Shown here piece after piece: positions 40,403 through 62,487 of a stretch of DNA of 64,000 bases (its first letter is position 1; the number at the start of each line of letters is the position of its first letter). The stretch is taken from the NCBI GenBank assembly GCA_900095095.1, contig FMBT01000446.1, positions 1 to 64,000 of the forward strand. The letters run 5' to 3'. The notes below the pieces were generated by a model. The model did no database searches, was not told the origin of the DNA, and saw only the letters and a list, made by a program, of their open reading frames with translations. This DNA is from Fragilariopsis cylindrus CCMP1102 (taxonomy: Eukaryota > Bacillariophyta > Bacillariophyceae > Bacillariales > Bacillariaceae). Made by a program: the position numbers and the translations under genes.

Positions 40403-40863
40403 GACGGGAACGATACGGTGTATATTTACTGCTGTACATAGACTTCGTCCAACCTCACAACCAGCTAGAAGAGCTAATAATACTGTAGGAAAGAGGAAAG
40501 GGAAAGAAGATGGTGTCCATGTGATTTGAAGGAGCATAAATAAGCGATAGATCCCAGTCGTGTCTAAACGAGAACACGTCTACGAAAATAGGCGCGCCCT
40601 TTTGTGAAACACGTGATTTTTTTGAGAACGTGCTCTATTTTTTAGGATCTGCCGCCAACAAAAATAGAATTCAAATTTTTGTCAGAATAAACGTAATGAA
40701 ATTCGATTCGGATTCTTGCTTTGCACGTAGCTCTTGGTGGTATCTTCTGTTCTTACAATATTAATTCTAATTCTTGTACCACATTTCTTCAATACTTTAT
40801 TGTTTAACACTTTAGTAAGAATTCGGAGTCGGTGCAACGGTCTGTCATAAGAAACAATTCAAA
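40403..40863. other. Divergent promoter region, 461 bp
   Basis: Separates the divergent plastid protein and the Mpv17-ACT gene. Contains an 8-bp palindrome GGCGCGCC at about 40592 and CACGTG at 40610. No gene, if the downstream start of the minus-strand gene is right. Confidence 0.5.
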
Positions 40864-42428
40864 ATGGTAGCATCGATGGCAGCTCGTCGGGTGGCAATGA
40901 CATCGACAGCTACGCGCTTTTGGTCGAAAGCCAAAACTGTTCCTGTTACGTATCCTCTTGCATTTGGAATCGTTCTTTCGGGATTTAAGACTTCCTTTTC
41001 CGATCTGTTGGTACAAAAGGTTGTTGAAAGAAAAGAAAAAGTCGATTGGAAACGGAACGCTGCATTTGCTGCTTTTGGTTTTTTGTATTTAGGAGGTATT
41101 CAATATACGCTATATGTTCCTATCTTTGGTCGTCTTTTCCCCAACGCTGCTAGGTTTGCTGCCAAACCAATTAACCAAAAATTAAAGGATGTTAAAGGAA
41201 TGGTACAATTGGGAATACAAGTTTTCTTAGATCAATGCGTACACCATCCTCTAATGTATTTCCCCGCTTTTTACATAACGAAAGAACTGGTTATGTGTGG
41301 TAGTAAGAATATTGACGGAAAACCTGACATCTCCCACGTATTGACTGAATACCGAGCCAATATGAAGGAAGATTTGCTGGCATTGTGGAAGATTTGGGTT
41401 CCTTGTACGATTTTTAACTTTGCATTTATGCCCATGCATTTGAGAATTCCCTTTGCAGCTGGTGTATCACTGCTTTGGACTGCTGTCTTGTCAGCCATGC
41501 GGGGCGGGGATACATTACACGGAGACGACTTAGCTGGTGGTATGGTAACAGGTGCCTCGTATCAAATCTTCTTGGAGGGATTGGATGCATTCAACACTAC
41601 ACCAGTTGAATTGGATCGTGACCTAGATCATATGAGTATTTCAGCTTCTGGGAAAGACCGAGCCGGGATTGTCGCACAGCTTGCCGGTCACGTAGCCAAA
41701 CAAGGGGGTAACGTTACTCATTCGAAAATGGTTAGATTGGGAGAAGAATTTATCATACAAATGCACGTAGCCGTCCCTAAAGAAACATCCAATGCCTTTT
41801 TCCGATCTCTTAAGAGTCGTAACCTCAAAAAAGAAATGGAATTGGATATTCAAGCAACAAGACTGAATCGACGAAAAACAAACCACGCACATACGGCTGT
41901 TATGGGTATGAAAATTCATTGTGTAGGAGACGATCGGTAAGTTGTTTCTTTTTTAATTCTATTTTAAATTGAGAAAGTCTATCATTTGTTTGTTGTGTTC
42001 AACAATACAATACAATGTAATATCAGATCTGCTATGATGATTCTCGTTTTCTTGTTTTGTTTCTCTCTCGGCTTGGGGTGTTTCTTGTAGAAAATGGTGA
42101 TAAAAGCGTTATGTACTCACTCATGCACCCTTATCTTGCGATATTAACAACGATATTGATTTCTAAATTATCGTTATCTCTATGTTATAGACCTGGGATT
42201 TTGGCCGATGTAACCGACCGCATTGCTAGAAAAGGCATGTCACTAGAAGACGTAACTACGTCGATTCGTTTGAGTAGCACCGGACAGAGAGAGTTTATCA
42301 TCGATGTGTTAGCTAGTTCACCCAACATGAAAGATAAAGAAAATCTGGATCAATATCTTGCAGATATTACATCAATGGAAAAAGATTTGAAACTCTCTCA
42401 TCTTGATATTCGAGTTCATACTGGATAG
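40864..42428 (+). CDS. Mpv17/PMP22-family membrane protein fused to two ACT domains
   Basis: Exons 40864-41936 and 42191-42428 (GTAAGT...TATAG), 436 residues. The N-terminal 220 residues are Mpv17/PMP22: YPLAFGIVLSGFKTSFSDLLVQK, DWKRNAAFAAFGFLYLGGIQY, FLDQCVHHPLMYFPAFY, and the signature WKIWVPCTIFNFAFMPMHLRIPF...WTAVLS. Such proteins sit in mitochondrial or peroxisomal inner membranes. After a linker come two ACT domains: MSISASGKDRAGIVAQLAGHV (about 258-335) and RPGILADVTDRIARKG (about 358-436). The order ACT-ACT matches the GcvR-type regulators that bind glycine or other amino acids. The intron falls exactly between the two ACT domains, and the first exon alone would end just after the splice site. 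The fusion suggests a channel or carrier gated by a metabolite (inference). Confidence 0.9.
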
Positions 42429-43079: not shown

Positions 43080-46000
43080 TCATGATTCATGCAGCTGTGA
43101 AAGAGCTTCTCTCGAAATCGAATAGGCGGCCTTTTCGATTTTGGCTGGGATGCCACCCCCGATTACAGAAAAAATAGCATCGCTTCGTGTCTTCAGGTTT
43201 GCATCTCCAGGCAATAGGTCCATTTGGTCCTCGTCATCTCGAACTAACTTTTTTGACAGCATGCCACGCTCCGACGGTGTGTGCAGGTGAGGACATAGTT
43301 TAGCGAAGAGCTTGACTGTGTTGGCAAAAGTGAGGGGACCCAAGCTGTAAGCATGTTCTACCTGTCCACCGATAGCGGGTTGACACAAAGAATTAAGCGC
43401 GGTGATAATAACTCTGACCTGTTTCGTTTCGTAGAGGATAGTGCTGAGAATCTTTTGCAATTCTAGACATTCAACGTCCGAAGACTTGATAAGTTCAGTG
43501 CGGTCGAAAACAATCAAACATTTGTCGGTCTTTAAACTTCTGCAGATAACTTCCAGCATAGCTTCCGTGTCCGTATCTTCGTCGGTCGGTCTACATTTGC
43601 CCTTTTCTTCAAGTTTGTCCAGTAGTTGACGAAGGAGAGAGCGACACAGGACGTTTCGGTCGCCTTGTTTTGGTTTGATGAAGTAAATGTGTTGAATCTC
43701 TGAAATGGTGCTGGCGCGCTCATTAATGTAATGGCAAAGTGCACAAACTAGTGACGATCGACCGATACCGGTATCGCCCAACACCGAGACCAATCTTTTA
43801 TTCAATTTGAGCAAAGCCGAAAGAATGTAATACAAGTCCATTTCTCTACCCAAAAAGAATTGCGGAGGAGTCGGAGAAGGATCTTCCTGCATCATATTTC
43901 GAACACTCAGCTCGGAACTCTTGGTTCCCAAGGTGAAGCCGCCTGTCAAAAAGCTTCCACGACTCCCGCGTCGACGAGAGGATTTTGTAAGGACAGAGCC
44001 ATGACTTCGAGACTGTTGTTTTGGCCATTCTCGAATAGATTTTGCACGGAATACTGGCTTATTGTGGTCACCGCCCTCAGGAAGCAGTACAAATTTCTTC
44101 ATTTCTTCGGTACTCTCTCTCAAGTTAGGGGTGGCTCGTACAGCTTTACAGCCTTGGTCGAAAGATTCCTTTACAGTATGACCCATAAGCAGGGCTAGAT
44201 AGAAGGATCGAGTAAAGGCCAGTGCTGAAAAGAAAAAGAGAAAATGGTAAAATAAATTTGATAAAGGAGAGAAACGATGGATTAGAACCCCAAAAATTAT
44301 CTGGATGATAAACCAAATTCACGAGAGATTTTAGTTTATTTAGATTAAGATTCACTTACCTGCCGTATCCTTTAGTTCGGAATCTTGTTTACAACAAACA
44401 ACATGAGGTACCCCCGCATCTGCAAATGTTTCACCTGCTAGACCACTATGACAGGCAGATACAAAGACAAATTTAAATGGGACAACACCGTTTTGCAGAA
44501 TAAGGTCCTTGATATCCTGGACGCTCAACCAATTCGGACCTCCCATTCCATCTTCAAAAGGTAGAAACGATTGATGGCCGTGTCCAGAATAGTGGAGAAC
44601 ACTGCAACGCCTAGTCAAGGTTGCCAGTAGACGAGAATGATGCGCATTATCAAAACTCATCTCGATGTCTCGAGAAGCTTCCTTCATACACTGCCATAAC
44701 AGTTCCTGCTCCATTTCAAAATCCAACTTCGCAAATGGATGCAATTTGTTCTCTCCGTCAGCAAAGACAAGGGGAGCCGAAAACAGCACAGTGATCTTGT
44801 TGTCACCCTGATCATTTGTGTCAAGAGATAATGTTTCTTGGTCTCCGGTATATGAGTTTCTAGAGCAGATTGTCTTTGTTTCTTCGTCAATAAGGTCAAG
44901 TTCGCCTGATTGTCTATCCACGGCATCTTGAGTATCAGTGTCTCCCAGAAGTTTCATTTCTTTTTCAACCACATATCGCTTGATAGCATTTTTCCGAGAT
45001 TTCTGTAGGAAGTCAGCGAGTTTAGATTCTTGATTAGAAGTCAGAGTGGGGCTGTTATTCTCGAAAAGTAGAAATGATAAACCGCTTTCGGCATCTCGAT
45101 TATTCAGGTTATCAAGAATTAGATCGATGAGAGCGGGGTTGAATTTATTTTCTGAAAGATTCAAATGGCAAAGTGAAGTGTTCTTCAAAAGACACGATGC
45201 CAACAACTGATAGGAGTCGCTCTCTAGACCATTATTAGAGAGATCCAAATAACGTAAGCACAATGCATTGTGCTTCAGTAGGGCAAAAATTTCTAGACCA
45301 GCCTGGCCTAGGAACAAATTGTTACCAGCCAGGATTAGCGTGTGCAAAGATGATTGCCAGCTCTTCCGTAACATTTTCACTCCCACCTTCTGGTTGTACC
45401 GGTAGTACTCTGTGTAGGCGCGCAAAACTCGAACAACATTAGCACCTCTTCCTATACGGTTTCCTGTGAGATCGAGTTGCTCTATACTGCATCCAGAATG
45501 CTTGTCATGGACAAGTTCGAGTATCATAGCAGCAGCTTCGTCTCCTAAATTATTTCCAGTAAGATCTAGAATTTTCAATGTCGATAATGGCGCAGGAGCA
45601 GGATTTCGTCGTGCATGTCCCATTTTACCAAACATTTGAAAGAACGAGCTCCATGATTCTCTACTTATTTGCAAAGAATTACGAATACTCATGCACGCAA
45701 AATTTCCCTGTGGTTGGCCAATGGACACTAGTGAAGTTTCGTCGTCAAGATCATGTCCTGACGATAACTTTCCAATCGTATCTAGAATAGCAACTAAAGC
45801 CCTGAGATCACGATCATTCAGCATGTTGTCGAATGTCAGATGAGAAACCCAGGGTGGAAGAGAACCGGTAAGATTAGCAAGTAAACCACCTCCATCGTCT
45901 GCATCACTTCCTTTGTCGGATTTGCGCATAGCAATCCATTCAGAATTCCGTACAAAAGAAAGCCCCGTGATCATGGGGTGTTTGTATAAAGTCTGAACGA

Positions 46001-49000
46001 GCGACTCAACGAATTCACCAGCGAAGGTGCTATTGGTGAAACCAAGCGTCCAATGAACATCATCAGAATCAATAACAGATCCTTGCTTGTCGCATAGCCG
46101 AGCCAAGAGCTCACCCTCTCGTCGGAACGAAAAATACCTCCTTTTTGGCATCATAAAAGCCCGAAAATTGAAGCTCGACTGGGGAAGAAGATCATTGACA
46201 GGTACAATGTAATTACGAAGTGCCTTTGACGGGAAACAAGAATCTAAAAGCTTTTCAACTCGCTCTGGCATGGTTCCAGATATACTAAATTTCTGTGACT
46301 CATTGCATGCTTCTATTGCATGATGGTGACTAAGAACCCAGTCTTTTTCTTCCCTCGCATCGCTCAGAGGGAAAACATGAGACGCCATCATATTTTTATC
46401 AGCTTCCGATACATGTTGGTCAACACTACCTGGAACTCTTTTCAGTCTATTACTAGATTCATAGACGTTAAGATATTGCCACAGTATTTTCTCTCTATCG
46501 TCACGTGAATCGTAGTCACTAGTGAAACTCGCGAATAAGTCCTTACAAACTGGGTCGTCGTTAGAATCAATACTTCTTTCGTCGGTAGTAGATGACTTCT
46601 CTGAATTCGCCTGTGATCGTTCGCGAATAAGTCTCATCTCTTCTAAACTATCGGGATCGGTTTCACTGAGAGGTATTTGCCACAATTCCAATACTTTTGT
46701 ACGTATTTCAGTGCGCACCATTGCTTGCAGAAGTAAAGCCCGATGCAAACAAAACAAATCGACAAGAAATTGCGGATTGTTTCCGGCCACTTGTGCTGAA
46801 ATTTCATCTTCGATAAATCCCATCGAAAGCAGAACTTGATTCGCAGCGGTTGCAATATCAATCTGTTCTCCACCCATACTTTTGAATAGGAGCAATTTCG
46901 GTAGTGTTTGGTTTACGATTCTAATCTTGAGGGGCTCGTAAACAGCAAGAGCTCCTATTCCCTGTAGTGCATCAATTGTTAACTCTGTCGAAAGATCGGT
47001 CTCGATATTGTCATCACACTCGTTTAACCGCTTGAGAATACCGTCCAATGCTTCGAACACATCAATTGCCCAATTTGCTATTCCCGATGATGCAGTATCT
47101 GATAAAAGCAGAGGTGATAAATTTGCCAACAAGCGGCACGATTCCTCAAGAAGATCTATTCGATCAAGTGCTATCATTTTATTTTCTGCAAGAAACGACG
47201 GAGTGCTCGATAGCGCGGAGACGCAAAGGATCCCCGTAAGTCCTCCACTCATTGCAACGTCAAGACAGCCCTTCACAAGCAGCTCCCTTGGCTTAAGTTG
47301 AGGATCCATTCGACGAATGTTCTGTGATTTCTTCGACTCTCTTTGAGGCTCCAATATATTTGCTAAGGCGCGAAGAGCTCTGTAGGTGTCTTTCACTCCT
47401 GTAATCAAAGTTTCATCTATGCCCAAGGAATCCATCGTTTGTCTTGCATCTAGTCTGTCATAACCTTCTAATAGTTTTATGACCGATGTATTGTCCTTGA
47501 TAGTCTGTCCAAGTGTTCCCGCAGCACCCACGCTACAAAGTTGCAATCGGGTCTGACGGTAAGAATCTGTATCTTCGCTCAGAACTCTGAGAGCCTCTAC
47601 AGAAATAGATCGGAGTTTCCCAGTATGTTCCAGGGCAATCTGCACAAACGACCCATGAGCCCATCCTTGTAGAATATCGCTAATATAAGAGGGAACAAAA
47701 ACACCGTTTAGAATGTAATCTTATTAGGATCGACCCATCAATACTGACTTTCATATATGTACTTACTTGACGACATTCGCATGTTTTGTTGTATTGTCAG
47801 AGTACTTGTAATTCCCGCATTCAGCACTAGCACCAGTCATAGCACCAGCCGCTAATTGTAAAAGAGCAGTACAGGCAAAAAGAACTATATCTTCCGATTC
47901 TGGTGAAGTATGCTCGTATAGTAGGGCCACCAGATAATTCACCCCGTTGGCATGTACCACTGCTGCTCTGGTATGAGGTGCAACACACAAATAAGACAAC
48001 ATTTCGGCAACTGCAAGACGAACATCTTGACCAACAGACTCGTTTAGAAGTTTCACAATTTCACTGACAGCTCCCTCATTCACAACCTGCGAATGAATCC
48101 AACCGGCCATGTATTTGTCCTGGATTGCGATCAGATAGCGCAGTGCCGAAGCAGCCGGTCGAACCTTATAAAAAACTTCCGACCGAATCCATTCTACAAA
48201 TATAGCAAGGAGCCCCTCACGAACTGCAATAGGCCTCGCTTCATCAACCTCGCACACTTGTTCGACAATATTATATCCCGTGTCAATCCTAAATTTTGCT
48301 GTTTGTGTCAGTTTAGCTAGATGGGCTATAAGCGTAACAGCTAGCTCTGTTAGCTCCTGGATTTCTATCGACTCTGACCCTTGGTCGAATACACCCCCGC
48401 CGGTACGTGATCGTAGACGTCCGTAACGAACTGTTTTGCCAGGACGAAGTGATGGGGGTGATGTACTGGATGCATTCTTTAATTTATTCATCTCAATCAG
48501 AGGCTGAATGGAATTTATCCATAAAATATTAACGCCCACTGAAGCCGCCTTGCACATCTCCTCTATTGTTATCACCACACCGTTTGGAGATACCGAATTT
48601 GACGTGGCCAAAAAATGAAGGCATTCTACCAGCTTAAGTCCAATTGATGAGGATGTTTGCGAGGAGGCCACGTATGACGGTAAAATGTAAGCTACCGCCA
48701 AGCTTGCAACTACTTTGAGTTCACGGGTCATACCCCTTGTCTGGTGAAATAATGATAGAAACGAATGTATCCCCCCGGATGATATTATTTCGTCACTTAA
48801 CGCCTGATCGTCCCTTGCAAACTTCATAAGGGCTAAAGCTGCTTGCATTCGTTTCTCGTTCGGAGCACGTAACATGCAAATCAAACTAAACACATCCTTG
48901 TTTTCTTCTAGTAGTTCTATAGTTGGACCTTCCACGGCCTTTTCCTTTTTCATCGGTTCCTTTTCCCGCTTTAATGCGTCCTTTCCCGCTTCCATTGCCG

Positions 49001-50276
49001 CACAAATCTCATCGTTGATACCGAATAGCTCTTCCAAATTATCTTTACCGATGGTATCTTCTTCCAGGACTGCACTGAGTTTTCCCTGTAAAGTTTCTTG
49101 ATCTTGTTTACAACACTCCATAAGTTCTCGTATGTAGCTAGCATTAATATCATTGATACCACTTTTTGACGTAACAACCGACATGAGTGCCGACATGAGT
49201 GCTCTTGAATGTTCCTTTGCCAATGTAGTAAAATCATCACCATCAGCCACGACCGATATGGGATGAACATCGTTACCACTGCCGCTGTCATTGTTTTTGT
49301 TGTCTCCTTTACTATTATCGTTGTAGTTATCATCGTAATTATAATCTTCGTCATTTTTTGGTGGGGCTTTGCGCGTAGTCGTTGGTTCGTTATCTGATGT
49401 TATTGATGGTGATAAGGGTGAATGTATCGTCGAAGATTGTTGCCGTAATGTCGCTGTTTCTGTAGTTGTGGTAGCGGGAGGCGCGGATGTATGATCCGGA
49501 GGAATATTCAAACTCAACCTTGTTGGTGTATTGGGTGTATAGCTGTTACTGCTATTATTAATATTATTATTGCTATTGCTGTTGTTATTGTTGTTATTTA
49601 TTCCAAGAGATGATGACCAACCCATTCCTCCTGCAGGAGTCTGAACGGAGGATGATGGTACTGACGACGACGACGATAGAGTTAAATGATCCATTATATT
49701 GGCTGTAGCATCGGCTGGATCATCATCCTCGAGACTACGTTTGTTAAATTTTGTTCCATAAATCGACGAGCTGTATTTGATAGTCGGCATCGCAGTATCA
49801 TCGGTAGAAGAAGCTATTGTTGCTGCTGCTGTAGTCGTTGTCGTAGGAAATACACCGACCGTTGACGATGCCGTCAACGAAGGATGGATGGCCGACCTCG
49901 TCAATTGACTATCAGGAGTCGGTTTGAGATTGTTATTATTTTCGTCGTCGACATTATGGAAATTACTTGAGTGGCGCGAGCTGGGGCTCTGATCATGGTG
50001 ATGATAGCGCTGAGCAAATTCTTTTTGGGGCTTTCCGTGTTCATTAGCGTCGTTGTCCATATTTAAAAGTTGCCAGGATTTAGAGTACGGCGAAGATACA
50101 GAACTTCGAGAGGTGGAGGGTCGGAGAGAGGAAGCGGTTGTCGTTGTCTTTGTTGTCATTATTGACGAAGTGTCATCGTTGCTTTTTGGCTTTCCCTTGT
50201 GGTCGTCATCCTTCTCCGAATAGTTGTCTTTGCTGCTCTTCATTGGTGATATATTATCACCCGACGAAAAATCCAT
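43080..50276 (-). CDS. ARM-LRR-CHAT protease-STAND NTPase giant protein (NLR-like)
   Basis: Exons 47767-50276, 44360-47679 and 43080-44224 join in frame to 2,324 residues. Start is ATG 50276 (MDFSSGDN). Donors are GTAAGT and GTAAGTG; acceptors are ATTAG and TTCAG. Domains: disordered, Ser/Asn/Thr-rich N-terminus (1-400). Armadillo-like repeats (about 430-1100), continuous across the first splice (VVNDILQGWAHGSFVQIALEH). NLRC-type leucine-rich repeats (about 1530-1700; ILDLTGNNLGDEAA, LRYLDLSNNGLES, LCHLNLSENKF). CHAT caspase-like domain (about 1795-2010) with His1870 in HYSGHGH and Cys1913 in FVSACHSG; the second splice restores DTAALAFTRSFYLALLMGHTV. Then an NB-ARC/STAND-like NTPase from about 2070: FFLGREMDLYYIL, P-loop GDTGIGRSS with Arg2099 where Lys is usual, and Walker B CLIVFD. 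It probably senses a ligand through ARM/LRR and cleaves a substrate. Target and trigger unknown. Confidence 0.88.
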
Positions 50277-51448: not shown

Positions 51449-52038
51449 CTATTTAAGTGTTGGACGACCACCAACCGGAAACATATCGTCCGCTAGCCAA
51501 ATTGTCTCTCTATCAAAGTCGATGATATCCAATTTCTTAAGAGGTGTTAACATATTTGCCCATGTCGAATTCATCTTGCAACCAATTGCAGCAGCAATCT
51601 CCTTTTTATTGCGAGTTCTTCCATCAGAAAGTTCACCAAATAAATCGCGGGCCTTGGTTTTGAGTTTGAATTTATCCTTGACCTTCTCATGAAATCTTCG
51701 TTTCTGACAGAACTCATATCAGTAATTTTCGCCTGGCTCATCCCTTTGTCGGTGACATCAATCGATCCAGACGACAAGGTGACCAAATTTAACTTTTTCA
51801 GTTTGGTCAATGCATTGGCAAATGTTGATGTACCCATGACTCCCTCAAATTTAGCAAAAGCGACAACCTTTTTTCGAGGAACGCTATTACTGTCAGACTG
51901 TACACTTGCGAGAGTAGCAGCTACATTAAGTACTATTTGGACAGCACCCCCAGGGCTACTACTGGAGGATGTTCCTCTATTAGACTTGCTGTGCTTCGCG
52001 GTGGAAGAACTTCCTTTTACGACTTTTGGCTTAGGCAT
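51449..52038 (-). CDS. Small protein with two winged-helix-like repeats
   Basis: ATG 52038 (MPKPKVVK). A basic, Ser-rich N-terminus precedes two related segments: TFANALTKLKKLNLVTLSSG (about 75-95) and TWANMLTPLKKLDIIDFDRE (about 160-180). Each is preceded by a helix-rich block. This looks like an internal duplication of a winged-helix-like unit. To read into the second copy one base must be added near 51690. This gives 196 residues ending GGRPTLK at stop 51449; otherwise the frame ends early in a non-conserved tail. No named family is recognised; DNA or RNA binding is a guess. Confidence 0.65.
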
Positions 52039-53031
52039 GGTAGTTTGTCTTGGGTATTATTGACCTATTATTATATACTTGTTGTAGATTTTGTTTTTGT
52101 GAGAAAGAGAAAAGTTTCCTTTATTATGAATGCTATAATATCAATCATCGAACACTACTTTGTCGTCACCTTCTTCCTCTTTCAAAACGTAATCTTCTTG
52201 CGAGAAAAAATCAAGCAGAAATAGCTCCCGATTTATCACCGCTGTATACTCCACGAGTGCAATGATATCGAAACAGAAGCAGCGTCCCGTTCCCACGTAA
52301 TATTTTCGATTTTTTTCTTCGTGGAAATTAATTGTCAACGAAGACTTAGAACGTAAATAACGCCTACAGTTCCCGTGATCTTCTCCGTTTCGCTCTCACG
52401 CTAAAACACGAGAGTACACGTTGAACGTGTGTACAATTTTAAAGCCGATGTGTCAGTTGCAGCCTAGTTTTATCAATACGGTACCCAGCGTGATGAATGA
52501 ATGAATCGGAATCAATCCCACCAAAACATGTGACCGCACAAATCTGCTGGGCGGCATTCTTATTCATATCATCTCCTTCCACATTATTATACCTTATTTG
52601 ACTTTTAATTTAAGTTCATCGTCGATCGATTGCTGATGTGTGCTGTCGGCGTTTGAAGGTTTTGGTTGTGATTTTGTTTTTTCGTCGAAAAGATTTGATT
52701 TCTTGGGGTAGACGATTTTTCGATTTTTTTTCATTCTATTTTTATTTCATTCTATTTTTATTTCTGGTTGATGACGCTGCATGTTTAAAGATGAATGACG
52801 ATGTATGAATCATTCATCAATCGTTCTTCTTCCTTCAATAAAATGAGAATAAATACTATTGACGAAGACTACGAACACAGCCAAAGACGACATAAAGACA
52901 ACGCCAACGAAAAACTTGAAAGCCACAACGTAAACAACGAAACACCGACCGCATCAAACTGTAGACCGTAGCCTAGTTTTGTTTAAGTAATTAATTTAAT
53001 TGAAGGAAAAACCGATACTTAAAGAACAAGT
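52039..53031. other. Intergenic, 993 bp, divergent promoter region
   Basis: Between divergent starts. Contains a direct repeat TTCATTCTATTTTTATTT at about 52730-52762 and a short GAATGAAT run. No gene is supported. Confidence 0.6.
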
Positions 53032-59115: not shown

Positions 59116-61879
59116 CTATTCACCACGAGGAACTCCAGAAAAAATACCCATCAAAATAGCTTCAGTTACTGCTTCGAGTGAACCTCTATTTCTCAGTTCT
59201 CTTGACAAATCGCTTCGGTCATACTGCGGGAACATATCTACCAACTGAGTGAGTGCTCGTGCTTCTTCTTCGGGCGACATTGGTATTGCTCCAGCCAACA
59301 TCAAGAGACGCCGAATGAACGATATTGAGGTTCTTGCTGCTGCTCCTGCTGCTGGTGTATTTGATTGTCGTTTTCCAACTCTGGATTCAACTCTTGATCT
59401 CTTGGTATTGTGGGCGCATGTTCATTAGATTGTATTGGTCCCATTGTTTGATCGTGCTGTATATGTCCTGCTGCCACTTGGGCCCCGAGTGCGGGCCGAC
59501 GTACCACTTCGAAGGAAAAGGCTGGAAATGGCAACCAAATTGGTAGAATCCCTTCAGTGGAAAATCGAAAAAGAGCCCGTTCTCTTCCTGCCTGGTGTAG
59601 TGGAACGTCATCTCTAATGCTGCTTCTGTTTCTACCACAGCTGTATCATTTGTTGCCGCAAGACTGTCATGGGAGGAGCGACGGGGATACTTCTATCCGG
59701 GGTAGCTGTATTTATGTTATTATCATTGTGGATGGTATTTGTGGGAGATCCTGTTGCAGCCGAACTGGGCTATCTGCTAGGGTGCTCGACATAAAGGGCA
59801 TTTTGCTACTTGCAAGTTCTGCTCACGTTCTATGACTTCTCTAAGACAATGTGTGTGGAATAAATGCCCGCACGTAATTTTTTTAACGTTCCCTCCAGTT
59901 GACATTGTTCCGAGACATATACAACAAACGTCACCGGATATAGATGCCCTTTTTAAGTCTTCATCGGTAGCGTCAGGGAATAGCCCATTTAAATTTCGAG
60001 AGATATTACGAATATTTCGGCGTCGGGCAACTTTTGTGCAAGCTGCAGAAATGGTTGAATATATATGAAGAGAAATTAGACCATCGATCAATGTCAAACG
60101 AATACCATACAAATACCAGGTATGAAAATATTGTCCCACCGTCAATATATGGCAACACATTTTTAGATAGAAGATAACTGAGTCTAATATAGACAAACGA
60201 TGATTTTGTTTTGATTCGAAGCCTTCCATTCTGCGGTCCAACTGTCTCAATTCTTGTCGGATCTCCGCTGACGTCATCGTGGATATTGCCGCTGTTTGTC
60301 TTTCTCCTTCCATTGGAACCGGAACTTCCATCGAAAGCTCAATACCATTATCCTCCGAATCTTCTTGGTGGCCATCAGCAATATCGTCAACATTGTTATT
60401 ATCACGGATAGCCCCATGCAAATTTAATTGTCGCGTCTCCAATTCCGTAATTGTTGTATCATGAGAATCTTCCAAAACACATTGATAATACTTCAATATA
60501 TGACCAATCGTGTCACATAACAAAAGGGCACAATCGCAATTCAGCAGCAAAACAATGTCCCATCCCGCTGTGTGGAGTAATGTGTAACACGAGCAGGCGG
60601 CAACGATGTCACAAGCTAATACCAAAAACAACAATTGAACGACTCCAGTCTTTGGTGATTGTCCCATCGCGGTAAGGTGTGTGTTGGTAGAATGGGCTAG
60701 ATGGTCCAAATTTCGTAGGCAACCTAGTAAGGTGAACCACGTCACCAATATCATTAGATCCAGAGTATCAGGTTCCACCACAGCAGATATTAATAGTAAC
60801 TTAAATACTAGAAAGCCTACCATGCGTTCTCTCGCGCTAGTAGCTGCCGAAGTAGAAGCGAAGGCCCAATCTGTTACTAAGGCCGCAGGATGATCTCCCT
60901 GGTGCTGTCCTTGCTGCTGCTGTTGTTCTTCCGTGTTGTTTGAAGATCTAGAATGCAAGAGGAACCAAGCTGCCATGACCGAATGTAACAGATATATCAT
61001 AGCCACAATATAATTAGTAATGACACACAATCGAATCGTTGATTTTAATATTTTATCAATGATGTTGGTAACGATCTGACGAAATGAAGAATATTCTAAC
61101 AAGACTGGATCGACCCATTGCCAATCAATGCCATTATTTCTTTGTCTGTCTTTGTGTTTATCCGCAGGGGTATCGTCGTTTCCTCCTCGACGAGATCGAT
61201 CATTTGTGGCTTCAATATTCTTAAGAAGCTCCGACCACCATAGCTTGGGCTGCGTTGGCATTTCATCAGTAGGTTTGTTTTCTTGACTATCATCGTAATT
61301 TTCAAATAGCGATAAGTGTCGTCGTTGCCTTAGTCTTTCTTGTTGTTGCTTTTCTTCAATATTGCCGCGAGCACGGGTTAACATCTCTACGATCCCGGTA
61401 TATGCGTCTCCTCCGACAGTTGTATCGACGTCGCCAAAGTTTTGAACTTTAGCAGTCATTGATAAGATACGAGGAATCCTCTCCCGACGATTTCTTTCTG
61501 CTACACGGTTCATCATCTTCATCATCCATGGATATTCGATTTTTGGTGTTGAAATTGGAGCTAAGATGATCGCTAATACTGCCAAAAAGACCGATACCAT
61601 AATATATACACGTGAGATTTGAAGTACGCCTATGCCTTTTGTTTGTGATCGTGTCGAGGATGTGTTACTGTGAATGTTGTTATGTGGTTGTTGCGAGACG
61701 ATGTCAATCCCATCTTCGTTCACGGTACTGTTGTTGATGTTGACATCTGCATCTCCTTCTTCTTCAACTCCTCCTTCGGGATCATCAATATTGTTGTTGT
61801 CACCGCCGTCACGTTGGAAAAGCGGACCAGCTTGATGACGTCGGCGCAATCCGTATGGTAGCTCTCCCGTAGTCGACAT
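59116..61879 (-). CDS. gp78/AMFR-type ER membrane RING E3 ubiquitin ligase
   Basis: ATG 61879 (MSTTGELPYG). Multi-pass membrane region: VSVFLAVLAIILAPI (residues about 93-110), then ITNYIVAMIYLLHSVMAAWFLL, MVGFLVFKLLLISAVVEPDTLDLMILVTWFTLLGCLRNL, LLFLVLACDIVAACS, and a last helix near 600. A long Asn/Arg-rich lumenal loop lies between helices 1 and 2. RING-H2: CCICLGTM...CGHLFHTHCL...CPLCRA at about 655-698. The first frame ends here. Downstream on the same strand lie ALFRFSTEGILPIWLPFPAFSFEV, which resembles the post-RING linker of AMFR, and a CUE-type ubiquitin-binding domain (ARALTQLVDMFPQYDRSDLSRELRNRGSLEAVTEAIL, stop at 59116). About four frame shifts separate RING and CUE. Role: ER-associated degradation. 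RING and CUE assignment is firm; gene unity is an inference from the family order. Confidence 0.82.
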
Positions 61880-62487
61880 TATTTCGTTTGTTCGAGTTTC
61901 CTACTGCCGAATTGTAACAATCCGTAATCTGGATTGATTATGTTTTCTTTCAGCACTTCTTATATCATTTCGAGACAATAAGACTTAGCGTAGTAGGCAA
62001 AATAGAGTTTGGTGTCGTAGATTGTTGCAGATGCAAATCCAATTCTGATCTGGTGTTGACTTCTGACTGATGTCTTCGATAACAGTATGACACGGATACA
62101 CGGTGCTACATTTTTAATTCACCTTAGTAAAGAATTAATTCTCGATCTTAGTAAAATCCGGTGATGTGAGAGCGAGCGAGTCGCGGGTGATTTAACACTA
62201 AGTCAGCTCCTACGGTCACTATAGTTTTGAATACTGCACGGTAGATTCTTAATTTTTGCTAGAAACAAGAAATATGATAAGATAAATTACAAACCTCTAA
62301 TCTAACAGGCATCTAAAGTAGCGTTTGATCTAACTTCTTTGAGGTTAACTGTATGACAACAACAATAACAACAACAAAAATATTGGTACATACGTTTATA
62401 GAAAGAATATCAACCAGCTTAGCTTATATACATATTATTTTTTGTCTTAGTACCCCTGATATTAGCCGGGTTTTAGCTGTATAGTAA
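61880..62487. other. Intergenic, 608 bp
   Basis: Upstream of the E3 ligase and downstream of citramalate synthase. Short ACA-rich run near 62356; otherwise nothing recognised. Confidence 0.6.

Follow-up and report, generated by a model that had tools for sequence, protein, structure and literature searches.

The gene at 43080..50276 (minus strand) of the window, by which we mean the whole 64,000-nucleotide stretch of Fragilariopsis cylindrus DNA analyzed here, is, judged by its sequence relatives, a diatom representative of an ancient stramenopile family with the architecture (SPRY)-GAT-like-ARM-LRR-CHAT-STAND. Within this family, we make the new observation that the Walker A lysine of the STAND NTPase is an arginine in nearly all diatom members seen and in Triparma. 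The reading we favor, with a probability of roughly 0.5, is that the product would be a self-contained CHAT protease that is gated by partners, carries a probably non-hydrolyzing STAND module, and cuts conserved substrates.

The gene runs on the minus strand from an ATG at 50276 to a TGA at 43080, and its three exons join in phase into a single intact frame of 2,324 aa, as the initial annotation had described. Exon 1 (47767..50276) encodes a low-complexity N-terminus (residues 1-350), a GAT-like segment, and the first half of an ARM solenoid, while exon 2 (44360..47679; model md5d383e5b5f2, pLDDT 79) encodes the second half of the ARM solenoid, the LRR, and most of CHAT. Exon 3 (43080..44224; model ma2d4a839b2dd, pLDDT 85) supplies the end of CHAT, a basic linker, and the STAND NTPase up to the C-terminus. 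Both introns are GT-AG: intron 1 (47680..47766) is 87 nt long, and intron 2 (44225..44359), at 135 nt, lies inside CHAT. Every exon is a long open frame, as would be expected if the exons were separate genes or a mis-joined model, but we consider this very improbable and reject it. Both junctions are gap-free in all 11 of the displayed homologues (of 120 aligned), CHAT itself is split by intron 2, and P0001 is a single homologue of 2,304 aa on a contig of 7,916 bases. The earlier claim that the splices rebuild conserved stretches of one gene thus holds. Over residues 480-2320, the window protein is 90% identical to P0001 and 82% identical to its nearest named homologue, P0002 of Pseudo-nitzschia multiseries, and its make-up is therefore not due to chance. 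The N-termini of the window protein and P0001 are also alike, both starting with MDFSSG. On these comparisons, the gene is real and old.

When the spliced protein is searched against Pfam with curated bit-score cut-offs, the four modules named in the initial annotation (ARM, LRR, CHAT, and STAND) are all recovered: Arm with 28.3 bits (cut-off 20.6), LRR_6 with 23.9 bits (23.4), CHAT (PF12770) at residues 1845-1975 with 29 bits (24), NACHT with 30.6 bits (26.7), and nSTAND1 at residues 2065-2282 with 31.2 bits (27.1). AAA_16 falls below its cut-off (31.7 versus 32.6 bits). The ARM solenoid spans residues ~480-836 in exon 1 and ~837-1170 in exon 2 (46680..47679, minus strand). In the predicted structure model, the LRR solenoid extends over residues ~1341-1735 (44985..46169, minus strand), which exceeds the Pfam match, and it resembles NLRP3 and NOD2 in a structure search. 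Ahead of the ARM repeats, residues 361-429 (48990..49196, minus strand) form a GAT-like helical segment with a weak match (E 0.0016; 19 bits versus a cut-off of 31). A Pfam scan of 17 family proteins gives this GAT-like match in five, the window protein included (window protein, P0001, P0017, P0133, and P0210). It never reaches the cut-off, and it precedes ARM in P0001, P0017, P0133, and P0210.

The same 17 proteins reveal a SPRY domain above cut-off in seven (P0141, P0145 of Hondaea, P0146, P0148, P0138, P0017 of Nitzschia Nitz4, and P0210 of Mucochytrium) and below cut-off in three (P0130, P0009, and P0051); such sub-threshold matches score 18.9 bits in Nitzschia inconspicua and 22.1 bits in Seminavis against a cut-off of 26.3. 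Among 212 proteins, many of them truncated at the N-terminus, a SPRY profile built from five pieces matches 27, including 22 non-seeds. Pfam yields no SPRY match in the window protein, P0001, or P0002, nor does the SPRY profile match the window protein. A hidden SPRY exon upstream within the window was tried and rejected, as the best tblastn match has an E of 0.66 compared with 1e-129 and 1e-39 for the controls. The 161-aa frame upstream at 51574-52056 has no Pfam match.

The exon 2 part of CHAT corresponds to residues 1797-1943 (44360..44801, minus strand), with the remainder in exon 3. The catalytic residues sit as the initial annotation had placed them, with His1870 (codon 44580..44582, minus strand) in an SGHG motif starting at residue 1868 and Cys1913 (codon 44451..44453, minus strand) in a SACHS motif starting at residue 1911. 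The pair is present in 120/120 of the first-search homologues listed. For a wider comparison, we pooled 211 proteins with bacterial frames and frames from contig C63 of the same genome and dropped rows that covered 300 or fewer model columns or spanned 900 or more residues. This removed 17 proteins and the C63 frames and left 194 proteins and 3 bacterial rows, and His and Cys are invariant in all 197. The dropped proteins include P0153 of the haptophyte Prymnesium parvum, which is without the SGHG string and has two CHAT-STAND-like matches in one chain. In the PDB, profile A4 matches chain 8tl0_A, a "CHAT domain-containing protein" (E 1.7e-7), although the single-sequence search matched no CHAT chain. 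The exon 2 model places strand-SGHG before strand-SACHS in a block with a pLDDT of about 61-80. The 50 rows of its fold list are filled by ARM and LRR matches and hold no caspase-type structures, which is not evidence against the fold. We infer that CHAT is a cysteine protease with an intact pair, for which proteolysis itself is predicted.

The STAND NTPase occupies residues 2060-2324 (43083..43877, minus strand). Its exon 3 model has the STAND NTPase fold, with CED-4, Apaf-1, and NLR resistosome folds as structure matches. The initial annotation had described a P-loop NTPase, and while the fold stands on both Pfam and structural grounds, the canonical Walker A lysine does not: the P-loop is a degenerate GDTGIGRSS (43752..43778, minus strand) with Arg2099 at the lysine position. 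This position is an arginine in 118 of the 120 first-search homologues listed; of the 197 rows kept, 147 carry R, 48 carry K, and one each carries C and S. Walker B, on the other hand, stays: among the 120 homologues listed, 119 have D at position 2184, and position 2187 is occupied by either E (106) or D (14). The pattern is one of a single residue lost with the rest of the site kept.

To place this replacement, we use a midpoint-rooted tree of 57 of 59 chosen rows. All arginine rows in the tree fall within one group of diatoms and Triparma, and the fork uniting Triparma with the diatoms has a support of 93/74. Lysine is found outside this group and arginine inside it, with four exceptions (P0039 and P0054 with Lys, P0121 with Cys, and P0123 with Ser, all inside the group), so this site is not strictly invariant. 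The diatom paralogues P0150, P0151, and P0154 keep the lysine and lie outside the arginine group on long branches. P0150, P0151, and P0152 are ankyrin-kinase-CHAT proteins with an intact pair and a GLGKTA P-loop and represent another CHAT architecture; P0150 and P0152 originate from Bacillariaceae MAGs. A lysine-to-arginine change in a P-loop often permits nucleotide binding without hydrolysis, and at Walker A it can also leave weak hydrolysis. Given this effect, the arginine suggests a non-cycling module, and the STAND module in diatoms is probably non-hydrolyzing.

Only about two dozen residues separate the GIP motif from the end of the chain, and a winged-helix (ARC2/MHD) segment after the NTPase is accordingly absent. 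A missing C-terminal exon encoding such a winged helix is unsupported, as all 120 of the first-search homologues listed have tails past the end of the window protein of at most 32 aa (median 2). A further 21 eukaryotic rows, some of them from more distant members, carry between 0 and 365 aa beyond the CHAT-STAND match, and long extensions past the NTPase occur in P0142 (247 aa), P0166 (243 aa), and P0154 (365 aa). When compared to CED-4, Apaf-1, ZAR1, and NLRP3, the window protein differs in that its NTPase comes last with the LRR before it, its Walker A lysine is replaced, it leaves no room for a winged helix, and it has its own protease built in. The departure from the order of plant and animal NLRs noted initially is borne out, with the LRR (1341-1735) N-terminal to the NTPase (2060-2324) rather than C-terminal as in NLRs. 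On sequence, the NLR label therefore fails on three tested features, namely the Walker A lysine, the winged-helix segment, and the position of the LRR. Elsewhere in the genome, three NB-ARC frames of more than 1,000 aa (C299:336312-337064, C265:986541-987269, and C59:39433-39879), two of them with TPRs after the NTPase, represent its more conventional NLR-like genes.

We searched the genome (67.9 Mb, 818 contigs) with exons 2 and 3 as queries. Each exon gives one full match, which is the window gene itself; the only distant matches, three with exon 2 and two with exon 3, lie on contig C63. An expanded NLR-type family is thus not observed with these queries. The C63 region at ~145-180 kb holds three related genes (L018, L019, and L020) with LRR-like sequence and a CHAT-like domain in which the catalytic pair is missing (GFGH or SCYG in place of one motif, NSYHS or SSTHA in place of the other). 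A STAND P-loop is seen in two of them, and L019 has a Macro-domain exon. By these motifs, the C63 genes are pseudo-protease paralogues.

Beyond F. cylindrus, a first search of the 7,977 best-sharing candidates found 128 proteins with E up to 1e-3, of which the best 120 were used; the organisms named among the matches listed are all ones we take to be raphid pennates. A second search with the CHAT part of P0032 found 91 proteins, adding Thalassiosira, Proboscia alata, Triparma, and Hondaea, with a weaker match in Prymnesium, and a third with the CHAT part of P0143 found 169 proteins, the best 120 of which add Ochromonas danica and Mucochytrium quahogii. For many homologue rows, the group is taken from the tree alone. 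The search of diatoms and stramenopiles proposed with the initial annotation has thus turned up relatives from raphid diatoms to labyrinthulomycetes. By sequence, the family spans raphid and centric diatoms, Triparma, Ochromonas, and two labyrinthulomycetes, and it is old and slowly changing.

Conservation is uneven along the protein. Across 29 full-length homologues, CHAT is the best conserved part (mean identity of 77.7%), with lower values in the LRR region (58.8 and 52.8%), STAND (56.4%), ARM (55.0 and 48.3%), and the N-terminus (19.9%). Among pairs of homologues, which are not independent of one another, the LRR trails STAND in conservation in 35/38 pairs above 90% identity, 100/112 pairs at 80-90%, and 229/458 pairs at 70-80%. 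The behavior of the close pairs fits a mild, sensor-like change and counts against a strict reading in which there is no sensor. Mean entropy is 1.58 bits at the exposed LRR positions (7 motif copies) and 1.65 over the whole ARM, compared with 0.41 at the LRR scaffold positions.

Two peptide patterns were scanned against the GTDB representatives, and one prokaryotic relative was confirmed: L021 (3692-6832), in the Anaerolineae MAG JAIMBB010000077.1, whose other frames look bacterial by eye. Three of 301 genomes of this phylum, the MAG itself included, match at E up to 1e-20. In all three bacterial proteins, CHAT is accompanied by a lysine-bearing STAND P-loop, and 259-527 further residues follow; in the midpoint-rooted tree, these proteins adjoin unnamed lysine-type rows. 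Like the window protein, L021 carries CHAT directly before the STAND NTPase, with 38% identity over the best segment and both SGHG and SACHS. Unlike it, L021 has the Pfam layout EAD7-CHAT-NACHT/NB-ARC-TPR, with an N-terminal EAD7 (56.6 bits, cut-off 32), an intact GIGKSS P-loop, a TPR-containing stretch of 527 aa beyond the NTPase match, and no ARM or LRR match. As EAD7 is described as belonging to a type of domain associated with conflict systems (PMC8195603), the make-up of this closest prokaryotic relative found fits a conflict role.

Several described systems share parts of this layout. Fungal NLRs with a CHAT effector combine CHAT and an NLR NTPase in one protein, as here (PMC10197012), but they are described with WD40, TPR, or ANK repeats, an N-terminal protease, and no LRR identified in that account (PMC12881547). 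Metazoan TPR-CHAT proteins, including TTC28 and the coral expansions, place a repeat solenoid before CHAT, as in the window protein, whereas they have TPR in place of ARM-LRR, no NTPase is named in the architecture described, and they are hugely expanded in Acropora corals (PMC12314368). The iSTAND and iSTAND2 modules of bacterial conflict systems resemble the window STAND by their description as having eroded NTP-binding motifs (PMC8195603); here, only the lysine is replaced, Walker B is kept, and a CHAT protease precedes the module. PADLOC matches neither of the two proteins submitted, and among the titles and abstract beginnings searched, no paper recognizably describes the window protein.

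The initial annotation had proposed an NLR-like sensor, a proposal that is partly supported: of the features of an NLR, the protein has the STAND fold and LRR modules but departs from it in the Walker A lysine, winged helix, and LRR position, and the searches with exons 2 and 3 show no expanded family. In its full form, the ARM and LRR repeats would bind signals of pathogens or damage, the NTPase would oligomerize, and the clustered CHAT would cut executioners such as a pore-former. We regard this as possible but doubtful. The likeness of the LRR to NLRP3 and NOD2 and of the NTPase to CED-4, Apaf-1, and resistosomes argues for it, as do the SPRY domain at the head of a number of relatives, a domain frequent in immune sensors, and the slightly faster change of the LRR than of STAND among close pairs. 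The EAD7 of the prokaryotic relative is of a conflict-system type (PMC8195603), and fungal and bacterial CHAT proteases are described as acting in gasdermin-type death (PMC10197012, PMC12881547). Against it stand the one full genome match, the deep orthology and 78% conservation of CHAT, the loss of the P-loop lysine, and the end of the chain with the NTPase. Gasdermin Pfam models match nowhere in the genome, although their absence is not established because the control also matched nowhere. A fast-evolving NLR repertoire, in particular, is unsupported by either the copy number of exons 2 and 3 or the conservation of the LRR, although between close homologues the LRR changes slightly faster than STAND.

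Conservation and copy number would also suit a housekeeping protease of clan CD, separase-like and scaffolded by a solenoid, with a cell-cycle, cytoskeletal, or trafficking substrate. Separase likewise consists of an alpha-solenoid and a C-terminal caspase-like domain, and the GAT-like match, found below cut-off in 5/17 proteins, would suggest ubiquitin or Arf binding. This reading is nonetheless unlikely. The GAT matches are weak, and a normal separase is encoded elsewhere in the genome (contig C89, 197 bits), to which the family profile aligns in hhalign with a probability of only 0.4%. Pfam finds no Peptidase_C50 (separase, PF03568) match in the window protein, the genome's C50 match being the C89 gene, and we reject the identity of the window protein as the diatom separase.

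In the partner-gated protease that we favor, the ARM and LRR solenoids would hold partners and keep CHAT off, while the CED-4/Apaf-1-like C-terminal module would not cycle ATP in diatoms, either binding nucleotide without hydrolysis or serving as a fixed assembly surface. Partner binding would then switch CHAT on, by conformational change or clustering, and active CHAT would cut one or a few conserved substrates. Its strong conservation suggests a core pathway, such as stress or cell-death signaling or the cell cycle or trafficking, rather than recognition of changing pathogens. By analogy, an immune or death role is possible, because fungal and bacterial CHAT proteases act in this way and the prokaryotic relative has a conflict-system make-up.

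Operation like an apoptosome-protease fusion is plausible. More tentatively, we envision a caspase and apoptosome in one polypeptide: in an ancestral stramenopile, SPRY-ARM-LRR scaffolds may have been fused with a CHAT-STAND cassette of bacterial type and the product retained among the core genes, and the diatom-Triparma ancestor may have lost hydrolysis through the Lys-to-Arg change, so that a switch that cycled ATP became a non-hydrolyzing, ligand-locked trigger for regulated proteolysis or cell death. Diatoms display caspase-like activities and bloom-ending cell death, and to our knowledge they are without true caspases. With its conserved protease, intact active center, and apoptosome-like module, the family is a concrete candidate for this caspase-like activity. 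The lysine and arginine groups further provide a natural experiment on whether STAND modules need ATP hydrolysis for effector control.

Finally, other features of the window include a RING finger protein frame (59780-61900, minus strand) and an open frame at 40819-41937 with matches to Mpv17/PMP22 (171-225) as well as an ACT domain (274-345), which is either a fusion or two genes. In the genome, two AAA matches with identical scores (C62:107437-107832 and C465:32567-32962), of which that on C62 is TRIP13-like, perhaps represent allelic or duplicated contigs.
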